Below, one piece after another: positions 1 to 5,107 of a DNA stretch of 5,107 nt. The position numbers were made by a program, and so were the translations under genes. Numbering within the stretch: the stretch's first letter is position 1; the number at the start of each line of letters is the position of its first letter. The stretch is from assembly GCA_030531025.1 (NCBI GenBank), contig JAUMTV010000180.1, forward strand, positions 1-5,107. Reading direction: 5' to 3'. The notes under the pieces were generated by a model. That model saw only the letters and a list, made by a program, of their open reading frames with translations, did no database searches and was not told the DNA's origin. This stretch comes from Turicibacter sp. GTDB taxonomy: Bacteria > Bacillota > Bacilli > MOL361 > Turicibacteraceae.

Positions 1-34
1 GCAAACGATTAATAAGATATGTATACAACTAGTA

Positions 35-47
35 AACATAAAAAAGA
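35..47 (+). repeat. 13-nt direct repeat, left copy (possible attachment core)
   Basis: AACATAAAAAAGA here is identical to 5076-5088 in the same orientation. The two copies enclose all five genes. The sequence is A-rich, so a chance match is possible, but both copies lie within 50 nt of a window edge, outside the outermost genes and terminator. Confidence 0.45.
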
Positions 48-58
48 CTGCTTATTAA

Positions 59-71
59 TTAAAAGTAGATA
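59..71 (+). repeat. Subterminal inverted repeat, left copy
   Basis: TTAAAAGTAGATA matches the reverse complement of 5053-5065 at 12 of 13 positions. It starts 11 nt inside the left direct repeat; the partner lies 10 nt inside the right one. A shorter inverted 9-nt match, AAAACAAAG, follows at 89-97 and pairs with 5032-5040. It could be a recombinase-binding site. Confidence 0.35.
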
Positions 72-93
72 AAAAAATAATTTACTGAAAAAC

Positions 94-138
94 AAAGCCT
101 GTATCGTAATTAACTATATAATTTACGATACAGGCTTT
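94..138 (-). terminator. Bidirectional intrinsic terminator after sdpI
   Basis: The arms 94-109 and 123-138 form a perfect 16-bp stem (AAAGCCTGTATCGTAA and its complement) around a 13-nt loop. On the minus strand the stem is followed by TTTGTTTTTC; on the plus strand by TTTTATC and then a T-run at 145-151. It should stop sdpRI transcripts that end near 273. It should also block transcription entering from the left edge. Confidence 0.85.
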
Positions 139-272
139 TATCTATTTTTTTAAAGTACTATTAAATAAAGAATCTATCAAGATAGAAGGAATGAAGCTCT
201 TGAAAGATATAAACTTATGATTAGTTTTTTCGTAAACTCATCCATTGATTTTAATATTAATGGAAGCGACCT
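139..272. other. Non-coding stretch between terminator and sdpI
   Basis: I see no gene here. On the minus strand it is the 3' untranslated part of the sdpRI transcript. The only structure noted is a weak 6-bp inverted repeat, TCCATT (241-246) with AATGGA (259-264). Bases 1-93 likewise hold no supportable gene, only the repeats listed separately. Confidence 0.6.
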
Positions 273-860
273 TTAAAGTAGAGATTTATAATAAAAGATA
301 GCCGAATAGATACTTGGGATGATAATCCAAGTTAAGATTCCGATAGGGACCACTGTATTAATATTTAAGAAGAATGCTGATACAAACATTAATAACGCAA
401 TCGGGAAGGATGAATAACCTACAATTCTATGTGCTATTCTCCAAGTTTTCTCATCTCTAATAGTCCAAGGCAGCCTTAGCCCAAAATATCTGTTGAAAGG
501 TATTTTGGGTGAAAGGTTTCCAAATACCATCATAACCATTGTGATTAAAGTAATAACTACTATATCTGTGTTCATAGGAACAGTTAATTTTCCAAGTGAT
601 GATAATATAACCAATATACAACAAAGGATAACAATAAATAGAGTAAGCCTATTTAAAAATCTAAAAGTTTTAACTTTAGGATTATCCTCTGATAGGTTTA
701 CTATTTTAGGTGCCTGTACATCTAAAATAACTAATGAAATAAATGTCAATACTCCAAAGATGTAATAGACTATTTGTGCATCTGAAAAAATAAATCCAGT
801 AGCAAGTATTAAGAGTGATATAATTAAAAATAAAATTCCTTTAAAATTAATGTTTTTCAT
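273..860 (-). CDS. sdpI: SdpI-like integral membrane immunity/signal protein
   Basis: A 195-residue protein of the SdpI family. In Bacillus subtilis, SdpI protects cells against the secreted SdpC toxin and, when occupied, holds the repressor SdpR at the membrane. Six hydrophobic segments are visible, at roughly 7-25, 29-47, 71-89, 97-115, 149-165 and 169-191. The family signature lies after segment four: G114-N-L-S-P-K, then F126-G-L-R-L-P-W-T133, W140 and H144-R145. The N-terminal half has no recognisable DUF1648-type motif, so it is more divergent than the C-terminal half. The ATG at 860 is chosen because AAAGGAGG sits 7 nt upstream (868-875). A longer frame from a TTG at 905 would run into sdpR and has no such site. 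The gene starts 13 nt after the sdpR stop, so the two are co-transcribed and probably translationally coupled. Family assignment is firm; the actual toxin partner is unknown and no sdpC is in the window. Confidence 0.88.
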   Translation of the reverse strand: MKNINFKGILFLIISLLILATGFIFSDAQIVYYIFGVLTFISLVILDVQAPKIVNLSEDNPKVKTFRFLNRLTLFIVILCCILVILSSLGKLTVPMNTDIVVITLITMVMMVFGNLSPKIPFNRYFGLRLPWTIRDEKTWRIAHRIVGYSSFPIALLMFVSAFFLNINTVVPIGILTWIIIPSIYSAIFYYKSLL

Positions 861-873
861 AATAGGTCCTCCT

Positions 874-1131
874 TTATTTTCTGAATAATTCCAAGAAATT
901 CCCAAGAACTTCTTGGATTACAGAAGTATTAATAGAATAAATTACAAATTGGCCTTTTTTTTCAGAACTGATAAGTTCTGCTCCCCTTAAATTATCTAAA
1001 TGCTTTGATATCGATGCTTTAGACATATCAAAATGTTCAGCTATTTCGCCTGCACTCATATCTTTGTCATTAAGCAACTTTAATATTTCTCTTCTTGTTT
1101 TATCACTTAAGGCTTTAAATACTTTACTCAT
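874..1131 (-). CDS. sdpR: SdpR-like ArsR-family transcriptional repressor
   Basis: An 85-residue winged helix-turn-helix protein that closely resembles B. subtilis SdpR in size and pattern. It opens with VFKALSDKTRREIL, has MSAGEIAEHFDMSKASISKH as the helix-turn-helix (about 25-44), and a wing with KKGQFVIYS (about 58-66). There is no cysteine, so the metal-binding CxC motif of true arsenic/metal ArsR sensors is absent; this fits SdpR-type control by protein sequestration. The ATG at 1131 has AAAGGAG 7 nt upstream (1139-1145). The gene is first in an operon with sdpI, whose ribosome binding site overlaps its stop codon. An inverted repeat directly after the promoter -10 is a likely autorepression site. 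In the B. subtilis model, SdpI bound to toxin captures SdpR and relieves repression; the same logic here is inference. Confidence 0.88.
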   Translation of the reverse strand: MSKVFKALSDKTRREILKLLNDKDMSAGEIAEHFDMSKASISKHLDNLRGAELISSEKKGQFVIYSINTSVIQEVLGNFLELFRK

Positions 1132-1161
1132 ATAACAACTCCTTTCAATTAAAATGTAGTT

Positions 1162-1181
1162 ATTTAACTAAATGGTTAAAT
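1162..1181 (-). promoter_or_regulatory. Candidate SdpR operator
   Basis: ATTTAAC (1162-1168) and GTTAAAT (1175-1181) form a perfect 7-bp inverted repeat around 6 nt. The site directly abuts the proposed -10 box and covers the expected transcription start, so a bound repressor would block sdpRI initiation. An outer TAGT/ACTA pair extends the dyad with a one-base offset. Assignment to SdpR is by position and protein family only. Confidence 0.6.
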
Positions 1182-1210
1182 ACTATATAGTTATTATAGT
1201 ACATTTACAA
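1182..1210 (-). promoter_or_regulatory. Candidate sigma-A promoter of sdpRI
   Basis: On the minus strand, TTGTAA (-35, 1205-1210) and TATAGT (-10, 1182-1187) are separated by exactly 17 nt. Initiation would fall near 1175, giving a leader of about 44 nt before the sdpR ATG. The spacing, the match to consensus, the adjoining operator-like dyad and the absence of another good site this close support the call. Confidence 0.6.
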
Positions 1211-1282
1211 GGAAAATATAACTATTTCTGGTATTTTTACAGTCTAAAATTCACTTTAATAGATAAAAGCATTTAAATTAAC

Positions 1283-1312
1283 AATATGTTGCATGAGCGA
1301 ATTTATTGTCAA
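1283..1312 (-). promoter_or_regulatory. Weaker upstream promoter-like sequence
   Basis: A perfect TTGACA -35 (1307-1312) is followed after 18 nt by CATATT (1283-1288), a four-of-six -10 match. It lies downstream of the tnp terminator and points at sdpR, so it could give operator-distal transcription of sdpRI. AT-rich DNA produces such matches by chance. Confidence 0.3.
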
Positions 1313-1357
1313 TATCTAAAACAGATTATGATATTATAAGTAATTTATACAATAACA

Positions 1358-1389
1358 AAAAAATGCAGGTCATAATTCCTGCATTTTTT
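1358..1389 (-). terminator. Bidirectional intrinsic terminator after tnpC
   Basis: AAAAAATGCAGG (1358-1369) and CCTGCATTTTTT (1378-1389) form a perfect 12-bp stem with an 8-nt loop, flanked by A- and T-runs so that it works in both directions. It lies 83 nt past the tnpC stop. It separates tnpABC transcription from sdpRI, so the two operons should be expressed independently. Confidence 0.85.
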
Positions 1390-1472
1390 CTCTTTCAAAA
1401 ATTCCTTATTATCTTTGAAATATTCTAACCATTTGATCTAATATAAGTGATTCACTAAATAAAATTTTTAGA

Positions 1473-1868
1473 TTATAAATTTGATAGTTTTCCTAACAAT
1501 ATGGCATTGTCTCTTTTGAGCTTTTTATTTTCTTCTTCTAATGAGTGAAGTCGCCTCTTTAATGATTCAATTACTTTATCTTTTGATGACTCACTAAAAC
1601 TTTGTTTTGGAGGTAGAGCAGTTATCCTTTTATTTTGCTCTTTAATCGCCTCATTAATAGGTGCTACTAATTCATTAGGATAGCTATATAAAAAAGTTTT
1701 GCTGACACCCGCTTGACGACAAATCTCAGCCTTTGAAATGGGATGATTAATAGGATCATCTAATAATTGAAGTCTTTTAAGAACGGATAGGACTTCTTGT
1801 TTTTTAGATTCACTTTCTTGTTTTTTATATCTGACTATTTCAGATGTATTTGGATGCTTATTAACCAT
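1473..1868 (-). CDS. tnpC: TnpC-like transposition accessory protein of the Tn554 family (DUF6262-type)
   Basis: A 131-residue basic protein; Tn554 TnpC is about 125 residues. In Tn554, TnpC is not strictly essential and is reported to influence the efficiency and orientation of transposition. A helix-turn-helix is visible at about 45-65 (SKAEICRQAGVSKTFLYSYP). The C-terminus is a coiled coil with leucines exactly seven apart at 103, 110, 117, 124 and 131. The other core positions are I100, L107, N114, N121 and L128, a leucine-zipper pattern predicting dimers. The ATG at 1868 has AAAAGGAG 8 nt upstream, and the gene starts 14 nt after the tnpB stop, so it is the last gene of the tnp operon. 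Its place directly after two tyrosine recombinase genes makes the assignment strong; its exact function here is inferred from the family. Confidence 0.85.
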   Translation of the reverse strand: MVNKHPNTSEIVRYKKQESESKKQEVLSVLKRLQLLDDPINHPISKAEICRQAGVSKTFLYSYPNELVAPINEAIKEQNKRITALPPKQSFSESSKDKVIESLKRRLHSLEEENKKLKRDNAILLGKLSNL

Positions 1869-1882
1869 TTTAAATGCTCCTT

Positions 1883-3751
1883 TTAATGAAAATGTTTAGA
1901 GGCTTCAAATACCTCTCCACGATTGATAATCTCTAAAGCGATAGTATGGAATTTAACCACTTTATCAAATTCTTCAGCTTTTTCTGTAAGTCCCATCTTC
2001 AGGGCATTATCACGGTGTATCGTAAAACTTTCAATCGTGTCTTTGACCGATTGTAAATGCCTTGGGTAAATCTTCTTTTTAATACAAGTTTTACAGCTCA
2101 TATGAGGACAGGCAGGCATTTTATAGGGATGTTCACAACATCCATCACCCTGTTCAAAGACGGCAAAAATTTTATTTTTAACCCATGTATTGTCATAAAG
2201 AGCTTCTTCTTCAGTTAGGTTTTCTTTAATCAAGGTAGCATCCGAACGACTTAATTTCTCTTTGAATTCTTTTTTTAATTTTTGTTGATAAACTTTAATG
2301 TATTTCTCAGTCATGGCAATAGAAGAATGTCCTAAAAATTCTTTTACTGCGTAAACATCAACACCTGCATCAATCATTTCAGTAGCTACGGTATGACGGA
2401 ATTGATGAGCAGAAATTTTATATAAAGTTCCATCTAAATTTTTAAGTGGAATTTGTTCAGATATTTTTGGAAGAATTATATTCGTATTAAATGTATCGTA
2501 ATTTATACACTCGACTATATTTTCTCCTTGTGAGTTTAAAACTACTTTAGAATGGCCACCTCTATTTTCCATCTTGGGTTCTCTAAATAAATACTGAAAA
2601 CCGTCTGGAGCAGGAGATAAATCTTTCACTCTTTCGCTTTGCCTTAAGATTGCTCGTTCAACCATATTTCTTCCATTTGAATCTTTTAAATGGCCAATCG
2701 GAATTCTTAGGTCCTTTTCGATTTTAGCAATTCGATGGTCTAAATAGAGTTGAGGGTCCCCATCTAAATCATATTGTAAACACTCCATACTTTTATCTGT
2801 ATGCTTTGCAATTAAATGTGCAATATCTTCAAATCGTCTTCCCGTATATCGAATAACAATTATTAAATCCCAGTATTGTGGTTCAATAATTGGGGTAGAT
2901 GCGCCCTCTTCTAATAGCGGAATGATTGTTGACTCAAGGTAGTCATCGAGTTGTATTTTAATTTCAGGTGGAATGGGGCGTGAGAGTGTTTCTTCAACCT
3001 TAGGGACATCGTACTTAGTTAATAGACCGATGGAAGGTGCGTTATCCCATTTATGATGGTACATATATTCAAACATTGTTTTAATCGTCTGTATTATTTT
3101 CTTTTTTAGTTTTTTAGAAACAGTTAGGCTACTTAAAATAGCTTCAATATGTTTCTCTCGCTCTAACTCTGATAATGAGTTTAGAGAAGGAAATGAGTCA
3201 TACATTACATCGAAAAAGGGTTTGATTTCCCTTATCGTATTTCCAAAAGTCCTTGGATACCATGTGGATAATTGATTTTTAAAGTATCGTTTAATTTGGG
3301 TTCTAATATTAAAATTTTTAATTAAACCAAAATCTACGATATACTTTTGAGGAGTTTGATGTCTTGGATAATCTTTAAACAGTTTCCTCATATCCCAAAC
3401 ATCATTTTTAAGATACTCTTCCCGTTCTTTAGGATTTTTAATATATTCTACTTCATCGTGCGATGAATAATGATCATTTTGTAATTTAGCCTGAACGCCT
3501 ATTAACTCTAATATCTTAACGAAACGTTCATCTTTGATTGCTTTATACCAGGGACCTGAACTTTTATATCCAGCCAATTTAGATATGTCATCATATTTTA
3601 ATCCTTTATTTTCATCTTTTGATAACACTCCATAGAATTTTTTTTGAGCAGGAGTCATCCAAGATATGTCCATTTTTTCAATTGGAAATAAAATGGTATT
3701 TTCAATCTTTAATTGTTCTTCTTGTTGAGAGATTTTTTTGGGTGCAGACAA
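1883..3751 (-). CDS. tnpB: TnpB, large tyrosine recombinase of the Tn554 family
   Basis: A 622-residue site-specific recombinase, close to the 630 residues of Tn554 TnpB; it is unrelated to the IS605 TnpB nucleases. The C-terminal catalytic domain shows Arg306 in RYTGRRFEDI, H449-x-x-R452 in HQFRHT, H475 in FLGHSS and the nucleophile Tyr484 in TEKYIKV, so it looks active. A cysteine/histidine cluster follows (C538, C539, H541, C548, H550, C553, C556), probably a zinc-binding module, then a helical tail. The roughly 250-residue N-terminal part should hold the core-binding domain. The start is a TTG at 3751: AAAGGAG lies 9 nt upstream (3761-3767), inside the last codons of tnpA, and only 3 nt separate the tnpA stop from the TTG. 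This suggests translational coupling and a restrained TnpB level. With TnpA it is expected to cut and join element ends and target. Confidence 0.93.
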   Translation of the reverse strand: MSAPKKISQQEEQLKIENTILFPIEKMDISWMTPAQKKFYGVLSKDENKGLKYDDISKLAGYKSSGPWYKAIKDERFVKILELIGVQAKLQNDHYSSHDEVEYIKNPKEREEYLKNDVWDMRKLFKDYPRHQTPQKYIVDFGLIKNFNIRTQIKRYFKNQLSTWYPRTFGNTIREIKPFFDVMYDSFPSLNSLSELEREKHIEAILSSLTVSKKLKKKIIQTIKTMFEYMYHHKWDNAPSIGLLTKYDVPKVEETLSRPIPPEIKIQLDDYLESTIIPLLEEGASTPIIEPQYWDLIIVIRYTGRRFEDIAHLIAKHTDKSMECLQYDLDGDPQLYLDHRIAKIEKDLRIPIGHLKDSNGRNMVERAILRQSERVKDLSPAPDGFQYLFREPKMENRGGHSKVVLNSQGENIVECINYDTFNTNIILPKISEQIPLKNLDGTLYKISAHQFRHTVATEMIDAGVDVYAVKEFLGHSSIAMTEKYIKVYQQKLKKEFKEKLSRSDATLIKENLTEEEALYDNTWVKNKIFAVFEQGDGCCEHPYKMPACPHMSCKTCIKKKIYPRHLQSVKDTIESFTIHRDNALKMGLTEKAEEFDKVVKFHTIALEIINRGEVFEASKHFH

Positions 3752-3754
3752 ATC

Positions 3755-4972
3755 TTATTTCTCCTTTCGTTTATTTTCTCGGTACCCTATCATTCGGCTG
3801 TATTCTTGTTTATTATCTTCAGGGGTTAGATGAGCATAAGTGTCCATTGTTGTTTTGACACTTGCATGACCTAATCGTTTAGAAATATATTCCCAATTAA
3901 TAGGTTCTCCTTTTGAAATATATTCTCGTGCTAACTCTGTGGCATGTGTATGTCTTAACATGTGAGGATGTAATTTGATTCCTGTCTTTTTGCTACGATA
4001 CTTAAAGATAGAATCTAATGTTGATTTAGTCATAGCACTTCCATTATCAATAGGGATATGACTACCAACAACGACAAATAGAAAATCTTCTTTTGGATTG
4101 CTATTTAACCATTCAGAGCTGATATATCTATCAATGAGAACCATTAAATCAGTTGGAAGGTGAACAAATCTATCTCTTCCATAACCTGCTTTAGCACGAG
4201 CCTTGTTGGAGTTATTTGCTCTAAATCGTATCCAAACTCCTTGCTCAGCAAAATCAATGTCTTCTAAACGAATCCCAAGCAATTCATTTGAACGCAATCC
4301 ACCTTCTTTGAGGCAAAGCAGAATAATTTTATCTCTTAATAAATTAACATCATCTAAATACCGTTTGAAATCTTTGTTATCGATGGTTTTGGGAATCACC
4401 TTAGGAACTTTAGATTTTAAGGTATTTACTTGTGTTGTTTGATTCCTTCTTATGTGAGCTAACATATCCTTATCTCTCATAGATGAAGTTACCATTACAT
4501 TACGGTAAACAACTGGATTTTCTTTGATTCGATGAGAAGCTTTTAACCACAAGTATAACGAACTTACTTGACTTAAAATGGCATTCATTGTTTTAGCTTT
4601 TAAAGTATCTGCCTCATATTTAAATGTATCACTATCATTTAAAAGCGTTACGTTCTCATAAAAGCGATAAGGGTTGTTCAACCATAATTTAAATTGGATT
4701 AACCTATCAGGTTGCCCATCAAGGGCTAACACATCCCATCCTTTCATTGTTAGGAAAACAATAAAGTACCACAACAGATAACAGTAAGTTCGGATAGTAT
4801 TAGGAGCCACTTCTCGTTCTGCTCTTGCTTGTATCATATTCAAATATTCTTTCACATAAGGAATGAAATTAAGTTCATCATCCATCAGATAATACATTTG
4901 TCCTAACTCAGTTTGTGCTTCTACAATTCTAATTTTTTGATACCATTTTTGTTTTAAAGCATGTTGTGACAT
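3755..4972 (-). CDS. tnpA: TnpA, tyrosine recombinase of the Tn554 family
   Basis: A 405-residue phage-integrase-type recombinase, first gene of the tnpABC operon. Numbered from the ATG at 4972, an N-terminal SAM-like core-binding domain covers about 35-145. The catalytic domain has Arg227 in GGLRSNELLG, H337-x-x-R340 in HPHMLRHTHAT, H369 in RLGHAS and nucleophile Tyr379 in DTYAHL, so the active site is complete. The ATG at 4972 is preferred over the GTG at 4996, which adds 8 residues: the only ribosome-binding-like sequence, AAAGAGAGG (4985-4993), lies 12 nt before the ATG but inside the GTG-started frame, and nothing suitable precedes the GTG. Even so it is longer than Tn554 TnpA (361 residues), chiefly at the N-terminus. 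The stop overlaps the region that provides the tnpB ribosome binding site. Its 5' end lies about 100 nt from the proposed element end, as expected for the family. Confidence 0.92.
   Translation of the reverse strand: MSQHALKQKWYQKIRIVEAQTELGQMYYLMDDELNFIPYVKEYLNMIQARAEREVAPNTIRTYCYLLWYFIVFLTMKGWDVLALDGQPDRLIQFKLWLNNPYRFYENVTLLNDSDTFKYEADTLKAKTMNAILSQVSSLYLWLKASHRIKENPVVYRNVMVTSSMRDKDMLAHIRRNQTTQVNTLKSKVPKVIPKTIDNKDFKRYLDDVNLLRDKIILLCLKEGGLRSNELLGIRLEDIDFAEQGVWIRFRANNSNKARAKAGYGRDRFVHLPTDLMVLIDRYISSEWLNSNPKEDFLFVVVGSHIPIDNGSAMTKSTLDSIFKYRSKKTGIKLHPHMLRHTHATELAREYISKGEPINWEYISKRLGHASVKTTMDTYAHLTPEDNKQEYSRMIGYRENKRKEK
3761..3767 (-). promoter_or_regulatory. tnpB ribosome binding site inside the end of tnpA
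   Basis: AAAGGAG on the minus strand lies within the last four sense codons of tnpA, 9 nt before the TTG of tnpB. It decides the tnpB start and implies that ribosomes ending tnpA feed tnpB translation. Confidence 0.75.
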
Positions 4973-5001
4973 CTGATGTAGATACCTCTCTTTCACTTAA
5001 T

Positions 5002-5020
5002 CAACTTGATAATCTTATCA
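5002..5020. repeat. Overlapping short palindromes upstream of tnpA
   Basis: ATCAACTTGAT is a dyad with a one-base centre. It shares its right half with a second dyad, TGATAA-TC-TTATCA (5007-5020). Together they give alternating half-sites of one motif about 30-50 nt before the tnpA ATG. They could be an operator or a recombinase-binding site; chance is possible in AT-rich DNA. Confidence 0.35.
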
Positions 5021-5052
5021 TGCGTAATTTACTTTGTTTTATGCATCTGAAC

Positions 5053-5065
5053 TATCTATTTTTAA
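5053..5065 (-). repeat. Subterminal inverted repeat, right copy
   Basis: Read on the minus strand this is TTAAAAATAGATA, matching 59-71 at 12 of 13 positions. It lies 10 nt inside the right direct repeat, compared with 11 nt on the left side. The further inward 9-nt match is at 5032-5040. Confidence 0.35.
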
Positions 5066-5075
5066 AAAGTTATTT

Positions 5076-5088
5076 AACATAAAAAAGA
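5076..5088 (+). repeat. 13-nt direct repeat, right copy (possible attachment core)
   Basis: Identical to 35-47. It lies 104 nt upstream of the tnpA ATG, about where the tnpA-proximal end of a Tn554-like element is expected. The bases after it (5089-5107) would be flanking DNA. They could also be the first arm of a host terminator cut off by the window edge, which would account for the A-run. Confidence 0.45.
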
Positions 5089-5107
5089 GAAGCAATCTTT
5101 AACTTAG

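Follow-up and report, generated by a model that had tools for sequence, protein, structure and literature searches.

The question raised by this locus is whether an sdpRI gene pair belongs to the Tn554-like transposon beside which it lies. Tn554-family elements are familiar as vehicles for resistance genes. In a 5,107-nt stretch of Turicibacter sp. DNA (contig JAUMTV010000180.1; here called the window), the intact tnpA, tnpB, and tnpC genes of a Tn554-like tyrosine-recombinase transposon are followed by sdpR and sdpI, and all five genes are intact minus-strand ORFs. tnpA (3755-4996; 413 aa) and the large tnpB (1883-3751; 622 aa) encode tyrosine recombinases matching Pfam PF00589, while tnpC (1473-1868; 131 aa) encodes a DUF6262 protein (PF19776). 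The three genes are adjacent and in the same orientation, with a long tnpB, as expected of the Tn554 family. R235, H345, R348, H377, and Y387 of TnpA were unvarying across 30 aligned sequences; in TnpB, the PF00589 match covers residues 441-490, and HxxRH and Y motifs were read by eye. We take these residues to be the catalytic positions of tyrosine recombinases, and, judged from the sequence, the active sites of both proteins are intact. The window TnpA shares only 30% identity with its best plasmid-borne counterpart of Tn554 type. As the original prediction held, sdpR and sdpI are the only genes after tnpC: the other ORFs there of at least 40 aa are one of 40 aa (1306-1428) and two (457-624 and 493-765) lying out of frame over sdpI.

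To place the ends of the element, we turned to its relatives. A TnpA alignment drew 78 loci from genome contigs and 12 from viral contigs, among which only L001 and L002 were close (73% and 71% identity; next locus, 34%). The Tnp proteins of L001 are 66-74% identical to those of the window. Five empty-site genomes bound L001, whose right end lies about 45 bp beyond a palindrome of 43 nt. On its right side, the flank match starts at 14279-14287 in all five aligned empty-site relatives; on its left side, the match ends at 9815-9819 in three of them and earlier (9747 and 9765) in the other two. The local alignments of L096 and L099 left 55 and 81 bases unaligned at the L001 site, with the stem described below nevertheless visible. 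No target-site duplication was visible by eye at the L001 junctions. In L002, the right-end palindrome directly follows tnpC, and a search of its own genome for this right end matched only its own contig. The slot between tnpC and the right end varies in its cargo: a lipoprotein-like gene occupies it in L001, and in L002 it is empty.

Alignment to the L001 right end placed the right junction of the window at 53/54, and the right-end sequence of the clade at about 53-140, beyond sdpI. The local score against L001 was 111, whereas the best of 2000 shuffles reached 67, and that against L002 was 59, compared with a shuffle maximum of 47. This region contains a palindrome with 16-bp perfect arms (94-138), common to L001 and L002 and terminator-like on both strands, and a right terminal repeat (59-72, minus strand) that, on a visual count, agrees with L001 at 12 of 14 bases. 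Between the repeat and the flank lies a putative 6-bp i-att core (54-59, minus strand), a brought-in spacer assigned by analogy with Tn554 and Tn552-II (PMC10214605 and PMC12486829). The palindrome pattern was found in 6 of 158 loci, all at the L001 and L002 places, and in none of the viral contigs. Since the right-end palindrome lies beyond sdpI and matches that of the bounded relative L001, sdpRI is very probably internal cargo of the Tn554-like element. On the best-supported reading, the window contains little besides one copy of a Tn554-family transposon of 5.04 kb, which spans about 54-5089. Its relatives point to a low-GC host of Clostridia type as the probable source. sdpRI is a cargo type new to a known transposon family.

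These boundaries altered two parts of the original prediction. The hairpin at 94-138 had been assigned to sdpRI as its own terminator; we rejected this assignment, as the same palindrome occurs in L001 and directly after tnpC in L002, and the hairpin is the right-end structure of the transposon, which may also end transcription. The promoter and operator attributed to sdpRI both held. A 13-nt direct repeat (35-47 and 5076-5088) had been proposed to mark the limits of the element as an att duplication. It was discarded: L001 ends without such a repeat (by eye), and the copy at 35-47 falls in flanking DNA because the right junction is at 53/54. The right limit thereby moved by about 19 bp, from 35 to 54. 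No Rfam family matched the window at gathering scores.

The cargo itself, as judged from its sequence, is a complete module of promoter, operator, sdpR, and sdpI. sdpR (874-1131, minus strand; 85 aa) encodes an ArsR-type repressor of the SdpR subfamily, scoring 126.6 bits against NCBIfam NF033789 (cut-off, 100), and sdpI (273-860, minus strand; 195 aa) encodes a membrane protein of the SdpI/YfhL family (PF13630). The promoter (1193-1221, minus strand) combines a TATAAT -10 box (1193-1198) and a -35-like element (1216-1221) across a 17-nt spacer, and an exact TATAAT box is present in five of eight aligned sdpRI loci. Between the -10 box and the sdpR start, alignment of the eight loci predicts an SdpR operator palindrome (1161-1182, minus strand) that is clear in seven, namely the family loci, and diverged in L132. 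The closest counterparts are chromosomal sdpRI operons of Peptostreptococcaceae: all seven family loci matched the window at 70.5-78.6% DNA identity, over a stretch running from 285-286 to 1188-1227, with SdpR 83.5-91.4% identical, and SdpI is up to 63% identical to chromosomal copies.

Two other accounts of sdpRI have to be weighed. In one, the tnpABC element stops shortly past tnpC, and the host has a resident chromosomal sdpRI operon that happens to adjoin it. The position of the L002 right end, directly after tnpC, fits this account, as do a terminator-like hairpin 3' of tnpC in the window (1357-1390; fold, -15.5 kcal/mol) and the stand-alone chromosomal sdpRI operons of the 7 of 71 family genomes that have sdpI at E below 1e-60. 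However, the right end of the clade stands beyond sdpI, and the region after tnpC does not resemble it, scoring 29 and 25 against the L001 and L002 right ends where the shuffle means were 37 and 25; moreover, none of the nine sdpRI loci examined has a tnpC match. We therefore regard a resident operon as very improbable and sdpRI as occupying the cargo position, as originally proposed. Neither of the outcomes that the original prediction had set against itself, an empty site keeping sdpRI and a boundary close to tnpC, turned up; a tnpC-proximal end occurs in L002 only, and in the window that same end stands beyond sdpI. For the window's own copy, no empty site was found among the genomes searched. 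The other account accepts sdpRI as true cargo with a role other than immunity, such as a membrane-stress or envelope switch or an element stability function. In Bacillus subtilis, SdpR keeps the sdpRI operon repressed; when an SDP-type peptide acts on the membrane, SdpI keeps SdpR away and protects the cell. That the function is known from this species alone, and that sdpRI stands alone in all nine loci examined, leave room for another role, whereas an SdpR score above the curated cut-off and a gene order and operator that fit an autorepressed operon argue for the familiar one. A non-immunity role is possible, if somewhat doubtful. By family membership and analogy with B. subtilis, the window sdpRI probably confers peptide-toxin immunity, a function of which we are less sure than of its cargo status.

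The flanks suggest what kind of site the element enters. L001 sits in the loop of an intergenic intrinsic terminator after degV: the five empty sites all form a stem, accompanied on the degV strand by a T-run, and the L001 junctions fall between two matching stem arms. It is the one terminator insertion mapped against empty sites. In the window, the right flank (1-53; host DNA, by alignment to the L001 right end) carries one part of a split intrinsic terminator, namely its second arm (46-53) and T-run, and the left flank (5090-5107; host DNA, by its pairing with the right flank) carries the first arm. The two flanks pair at 11 of 11 positions (one G-U), a result reached by 32 of 20,000 dinucleotide shuffles of the first 20 nt in a test devised after the pairing was seen, and when joined they form an 11-12 bp stem with a T-run. 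The window's copy probably also targeted a terminator loop, although we hold this less firmly than the cargo status of sdpRI. The terminator loop is perhaps a target type new to the Tn554 family. radC is the usual target of Tn554, whereas that of the window clade looks like a terminator loop; L001 lies in the terminator after degV and not at att554/radC. A target other than radC does not exclude membership in the Tn554 family, because the Tn554 relative Tn552-II also uses another, a yolD-like gene (PMC12486829). The right flank of the window gave weak matches in each of the 71 family genomes (E up to 5; best, 1.4e-4), among which the host locus was not found.

The exact left end of the window's copy is probably marked by a putative 6-bp att core at 5084-5089 (minus strand), a less certain placement than that of the right end. 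In L001 and L002, a hairpin with a T-run precedes tnpA by about 85-215 bp; in the window this hairpin is either missing or cut off by the contig edge, which makes the left end uncertain. The contig edge may cut a left-end hairpin, or the left end may start at TTAAAGA, five bases in. When terminal inverted repeats were aligned freely, neither those of the window nor those of L001 exceeded shuffles; at fixed position, those of L001 did so (37/20,000).

These observations bear on whether the copy is mobile and whether the terminator loop is a genuine target. The missing left-end hairpin would suit an immobile relic, truncated on the left, that carries sdpRI; against this, none of the three tnp reading frames is disrupted, and pairing between the left edge and the right flank yields a split terminator, which suggests that the insertion is complete and that its left end has diverged. 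A relic is unlikely, and the window's copy is presumably mobile. With regard to the target, terminators are frequent between genes, and intergenic terminators may simply be where insertions survive; with a single insertion mapped against empty sites, such a chance association is quite possible, short of being the expected explanation. Yet two matching arms enclose the L001 junctions, and paired arms are independently present at both ends of the window. We tentatively favor the terminator loop as a target, in a wider proposal that is plausible but falls short of probable: in Clostridia and Bacilli, Tn554-like transposons of one clade target terminator loops and bring their own bidirectional right-end terminator, which makes insertion neutral for neighbours; chromosomal fitness genes would travel between bacteria on them, the example here being a complete peptide-toxin immunity switch.

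In the mechanism that we propose, the three Tnp proteins would generate a circular intermediate and insert it at a short core sequence within an intrinsic-terminator loop. The right-end palindrome, as a terminator on both strands, would end both transcription of the cargo and read-through from the interrupted neighbour. A chromosome resembling those of Peptostreptococcaceae may have been the source from which the sdpRI switch was captured together with its promoter and operator. If the switch works as in B. subtilis, SdpR would hold the operon repressed, and once an SDP-type peptide acts on the membrane, SdpI would hold SdpR away, protecting the cell.

We took the Tn554 family as Tn554, Tn558, Tn553/Tn552-II, Tn6188, and Tn6674. 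Like these elements, the window has the tnpA-tnpB-tnpC order, two tyrosine recombinases with a small TnpC, and cargo after tnpC; unlike them, it carries sdpRI instead of drug- or biocide-resistance genes. The sdpRI operons of B. subtilis and Peptostreptococcaceae likewise have sdpR followed by sdpI with their own promoter and operator, whereas that of the window lies inside a transposon, and the element has no toxin gene. SE, GInt, and RIT elements, like the window, encode several recombination proteins together, but SE and GInt have four genes and RIT three recombinases (PMC10214605; for RIT also PMC3414803), compared with two recombinases plus TnpC here. The putative spacers of the window would fit the 6-7 bp spacer model of the Tn554 family (PMC10214605 and PMC12486829); SEs take along 6 bp of the donor site as a spacer (PMC10214605). 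The presence of sdpRI on a Tn554 relative suggests that toxin protection can spread on very small transposons, apart from toxin genes. A terminator-loop target with a built-in replacement terminator, if true, would explain harmless landing close to genes, and the target would offer a simple rule for finding such elements in genomes.

The original prediction had called for a search for tnpABC-sdpRI at different chromosomal sites; no second site was found, the combination occurring in this contig only among the genomes searched. The TnpA clade was found in 393 plus 71 genomes only in G001 itself (E 1e-60), and neither in a further 4 genomes (E 1e-60) nor in 397 plus 206 genomes (E 1e-100); for some genome sets, at most 4 to 8 candidates were scored per genome, so misses are possible. 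Single-sequence TnpA scans of genome contigs and viral contigs, and megablast of the window against plasmids and phages, gave no match. Neither sdpI nor sdpR was matched among the collected relatives' loci of tnp genes, nor was SdpI in G001 or G002 (0/2), and we found no account in the literature searched of Tn554-type elements with sdpI or sdpRI cargo. SdpI did match two plasmid records by tblastn, at 40.8%. Clostridium perfringens has both a TnpA match and an SdpI match, on contigs of equal length (1,937,660), an observation with no bearing on how close the two lie. PADLOC returned matches for SdpR only, the best being Csa3 (1.2e-19), which we read as a common helix-turn-helix.

The minus strand of the window carries five intact genes. 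Those for TnpA (3755–4996; tyrosine recombinase, PF00589), TnpB (1883–3751; long tyrosine recombinase, PF00589), and the small TnpC (1473–1868; PF19776/DUF6262) have the same order as in Tn554, tnpA-tnpB-tnpC with one long recombinase. The other two encode SdpR (874–1131), which scored 126.6 bits against NCBIfam NF033789 (SdpR autorepressor subfamily; cut-off, 100), and SdpI (273–860; PF13630). In Bacillus subtilis, SdpR acts as a repressor, and SdpI sequesters SdpR at the membrane and gives immunity to the SDP peptide. All 444 plasmid records matching the window's TnpA shared <60% identity with it; the best 20 matched at 30% identity across 96% of the TnpA length, and one of these is annotated as "Tn554 family transposase A." Among the best 120 of 615 protein matches, a TnpA clade of 54 to 90% identity was found, with named proteins from Clostridium, Terrisporobacter, Bacillus, Priestia, Peribacillus, Domibacillus, and Aneurinibacillus.

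Only two of 78 loci carried close relatives of the window's tnpABC: L001, from a Clostridium MAG (TnpA, 73% identity; TnpB, 66%; TnpC, 74%), and L002, from Aneurinibacillus (71%, 56%, and 68%, respectively). DNA to the right of L001, used as a query, matched in 56 of 61 genomes, L001's own included. The five best (L095 to L099) of the 14 other-genome loci fetched were aligned to L001 as empty sites, and the other nine were left out. In all five, the sequence was predicted to fold into a short stem followed by a T-run when read in the direction of degV, the gene before the insertion site, and the right-flank match restarted at L001 14279–14287. The left-flank match was unbroken to 9817, 9819, and 9815 in L095, L097, and L098, with 2, 3, and 7 bases of the empty site unaligned between the two flank matches; for L096 and L099, it ended earlier, at 9765 and 9747, with 55 and 81 bases unaligned and the same stem visible. 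Because the flank matches stop and restart there, the L001 element spans about 9818–14280. It interrupts the terminator that separates degV from a lipoprotein gene, which by eye resembles the BMP family. Its cargo is a lipoprotein-like open reading frame of 108 amino acids on the opposite strand, which matched no Pfam family; a 69% similar stretch occurs elsewhere in one relative (G246). L002 (1–3828) is a tnpABC element without cargo. Its contig edges fall ~5 to 12 bases from the expected element ends, a pattern of repeat-limited contigs; when the right end was sought in its own genome, it was present on that one contig only.

A palindrome marks the right end of all three elements. In L001 it comprises 43 nt (14194–14236), about 45 bp inside the right junction; the same palindrome directly follows tnpC in L002 and lies at 94–138, outside sdpI, in the window. 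The right ends of the window and L001 aligned with a score of 111 (maximum of 67 among 2,000 shuffles), those of the window and L002 with 59 (shuffle maximum, 47), and those of L001 and L002 with 68 (shuffle maximum, 48). The window region after tnpC showed no similarity to the L001 and L002 right ends (scores of 29 and 25 versus 1,000-shuffle means of 37 and 25). Two base pairs of the stem differ between the window and L001, each with both sides changed. A pattern built from these same three sequences was found in 6 of 158 loci searched, all six being copies of the L001 and L002 places. The hairpin after sdpI is therefore the transposon's right-end structure; sdpRI is internal to the element, and the same slot holds different cargoes in L001 and the window and is empty in L002. 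These data support the original prediction that this Tn554-like transposon has an operon of the peptide-immunity type as its cargo. The operator attributed to that operon is supported by upstream conservation, as detailed below; its supposed terminator is instead the right-end hairpin.

An SdpI search of 71 genomes of L001's family, inferred to be Peptostreptococcaceae, matched 11 at an E value of 1e-20, 7 of them below 1e-60. We examined nine loci, these seven plus two of four found among 391 class genomes, and left out the six weaker matches of both searches. sdpR was upstream of sdpI in all nine. No TnpC match was found beside sdpRI in any of the nine, some of which extend only a short way to one side; one of the nine, L127, encodes a phage-like integrase that weakly matches TnpA and TnpB. 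DNA similarity between the window and the seven family loci runs from 285–286 to 1188–1227 (70.5 to 78.6% identity), so the captured piece comprises sdpI, sdpR, and their promoter region. Identity to these loci was 83.5 to 91.4% for SdpR and 53 to 63% for SdpI. Upstream of sdpR, where eight loci could be aligned (the ninth was too near a contig end), a palindrome at 1161–1182 was clearly present in all seven family loci, L132 had a diverged version, and an exact TATAAT, preceded by a −35-like box, occurred in five of the eight.

Recurrence of tnpABC-sdpRI at different sites, the check proposed with the original prediction, was not observed: the two occur together on this contig only. No sdpI or sdpR match (1e-4) was found among L001 to L090, which include many short contigs and only L001 and L002 from the close clade. 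Searches of 393, 71, 4, 397, and 206 genomes, three of which were capped at 4 to 8 scored candidates per genome, gave no clade carrier apart from L001's own genome. In the protein database, the window's SdpI is on four contigs, the longest of 5,107 bases, and the longest contig with an 89% identical TnpA has 5,134 bases; sizes so close to each other are a hint, though no proof, that a unit of this length is repeated. A literature search, mostly without subscription journals, found neither Tn554 and sdpI together in one paper nor the Tn554 family with an immunity protein and bacteriocin. The element is new by its cargo, in a combination that rests on a single contig, and perhaps also by its target.

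The empty sites of the L001 insertion have the features of an intrinsic terminator, and the L001 junctions fall between the stem arms, one arm left of the element and the other right. In the window, the right flank begins, from the junction predicted with L001, with a stem arm followed by TTTTTT, and the other contig edge holds a partner arm (11 of 11 pairs, including one G-U). Joined, the flanks were predicted to fold into an 11- to 12-bp stem with a T-run (−11.4 or −12.6 kcal/mol). The 11-of-11 pairing was reached in 32 of 20,000 cases when the first 20 nt were shuffled and in 35 of 20,000 when the first 60 were, with the arm length picked post hoc. We take the window's element as 54–5089, its left end being weaker than its right. 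The 13-nt exact direct repeat near the two contig edges (35–47 and 5076–5088), proposed as the element's ends, does not fit these limits, as its right copy lies outside the element. In L001 (9844–9890) and L002 (35–66), the stretch from the left end to tnpA contains a hairpin with a T-run; this hairpin may shield the tnp genes from read-through. The window does not show it; therefore, the contig edge may cut such a hairpin, in which case the contig would lack a few dozen bases and the flank pairing would be due to chance. The L001 terminal inverted repeat pairs at 14 of 19 bases at a fixed position, which 37 of 20,000 shuffles reach; aligned freely, neither its repeats nor the window's exceeded shuffles.

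Tn554-type and SE elements are described, in passages of two reports, as picking up a 6- to 7-bp spacer on the left at the donor site and depositing it at their right end in the new site, with a circular intermediate in SEs and Tn552-II (PMC10214605, PMC12486829). The window layout is consistent with this spacer model. Since the right-end palindrome was predicted to be terminator-like in both strands, an element inserted into the loop of a terminator would provide the interrupted gene with a stop signal again and would also close its own cargo off from the neighbors. In both window 1–53 and L001 9790–9817, a T-run in terminator orientation is followed by ATG(C/T)TTACT, a match that may reflect target recognition or chance.
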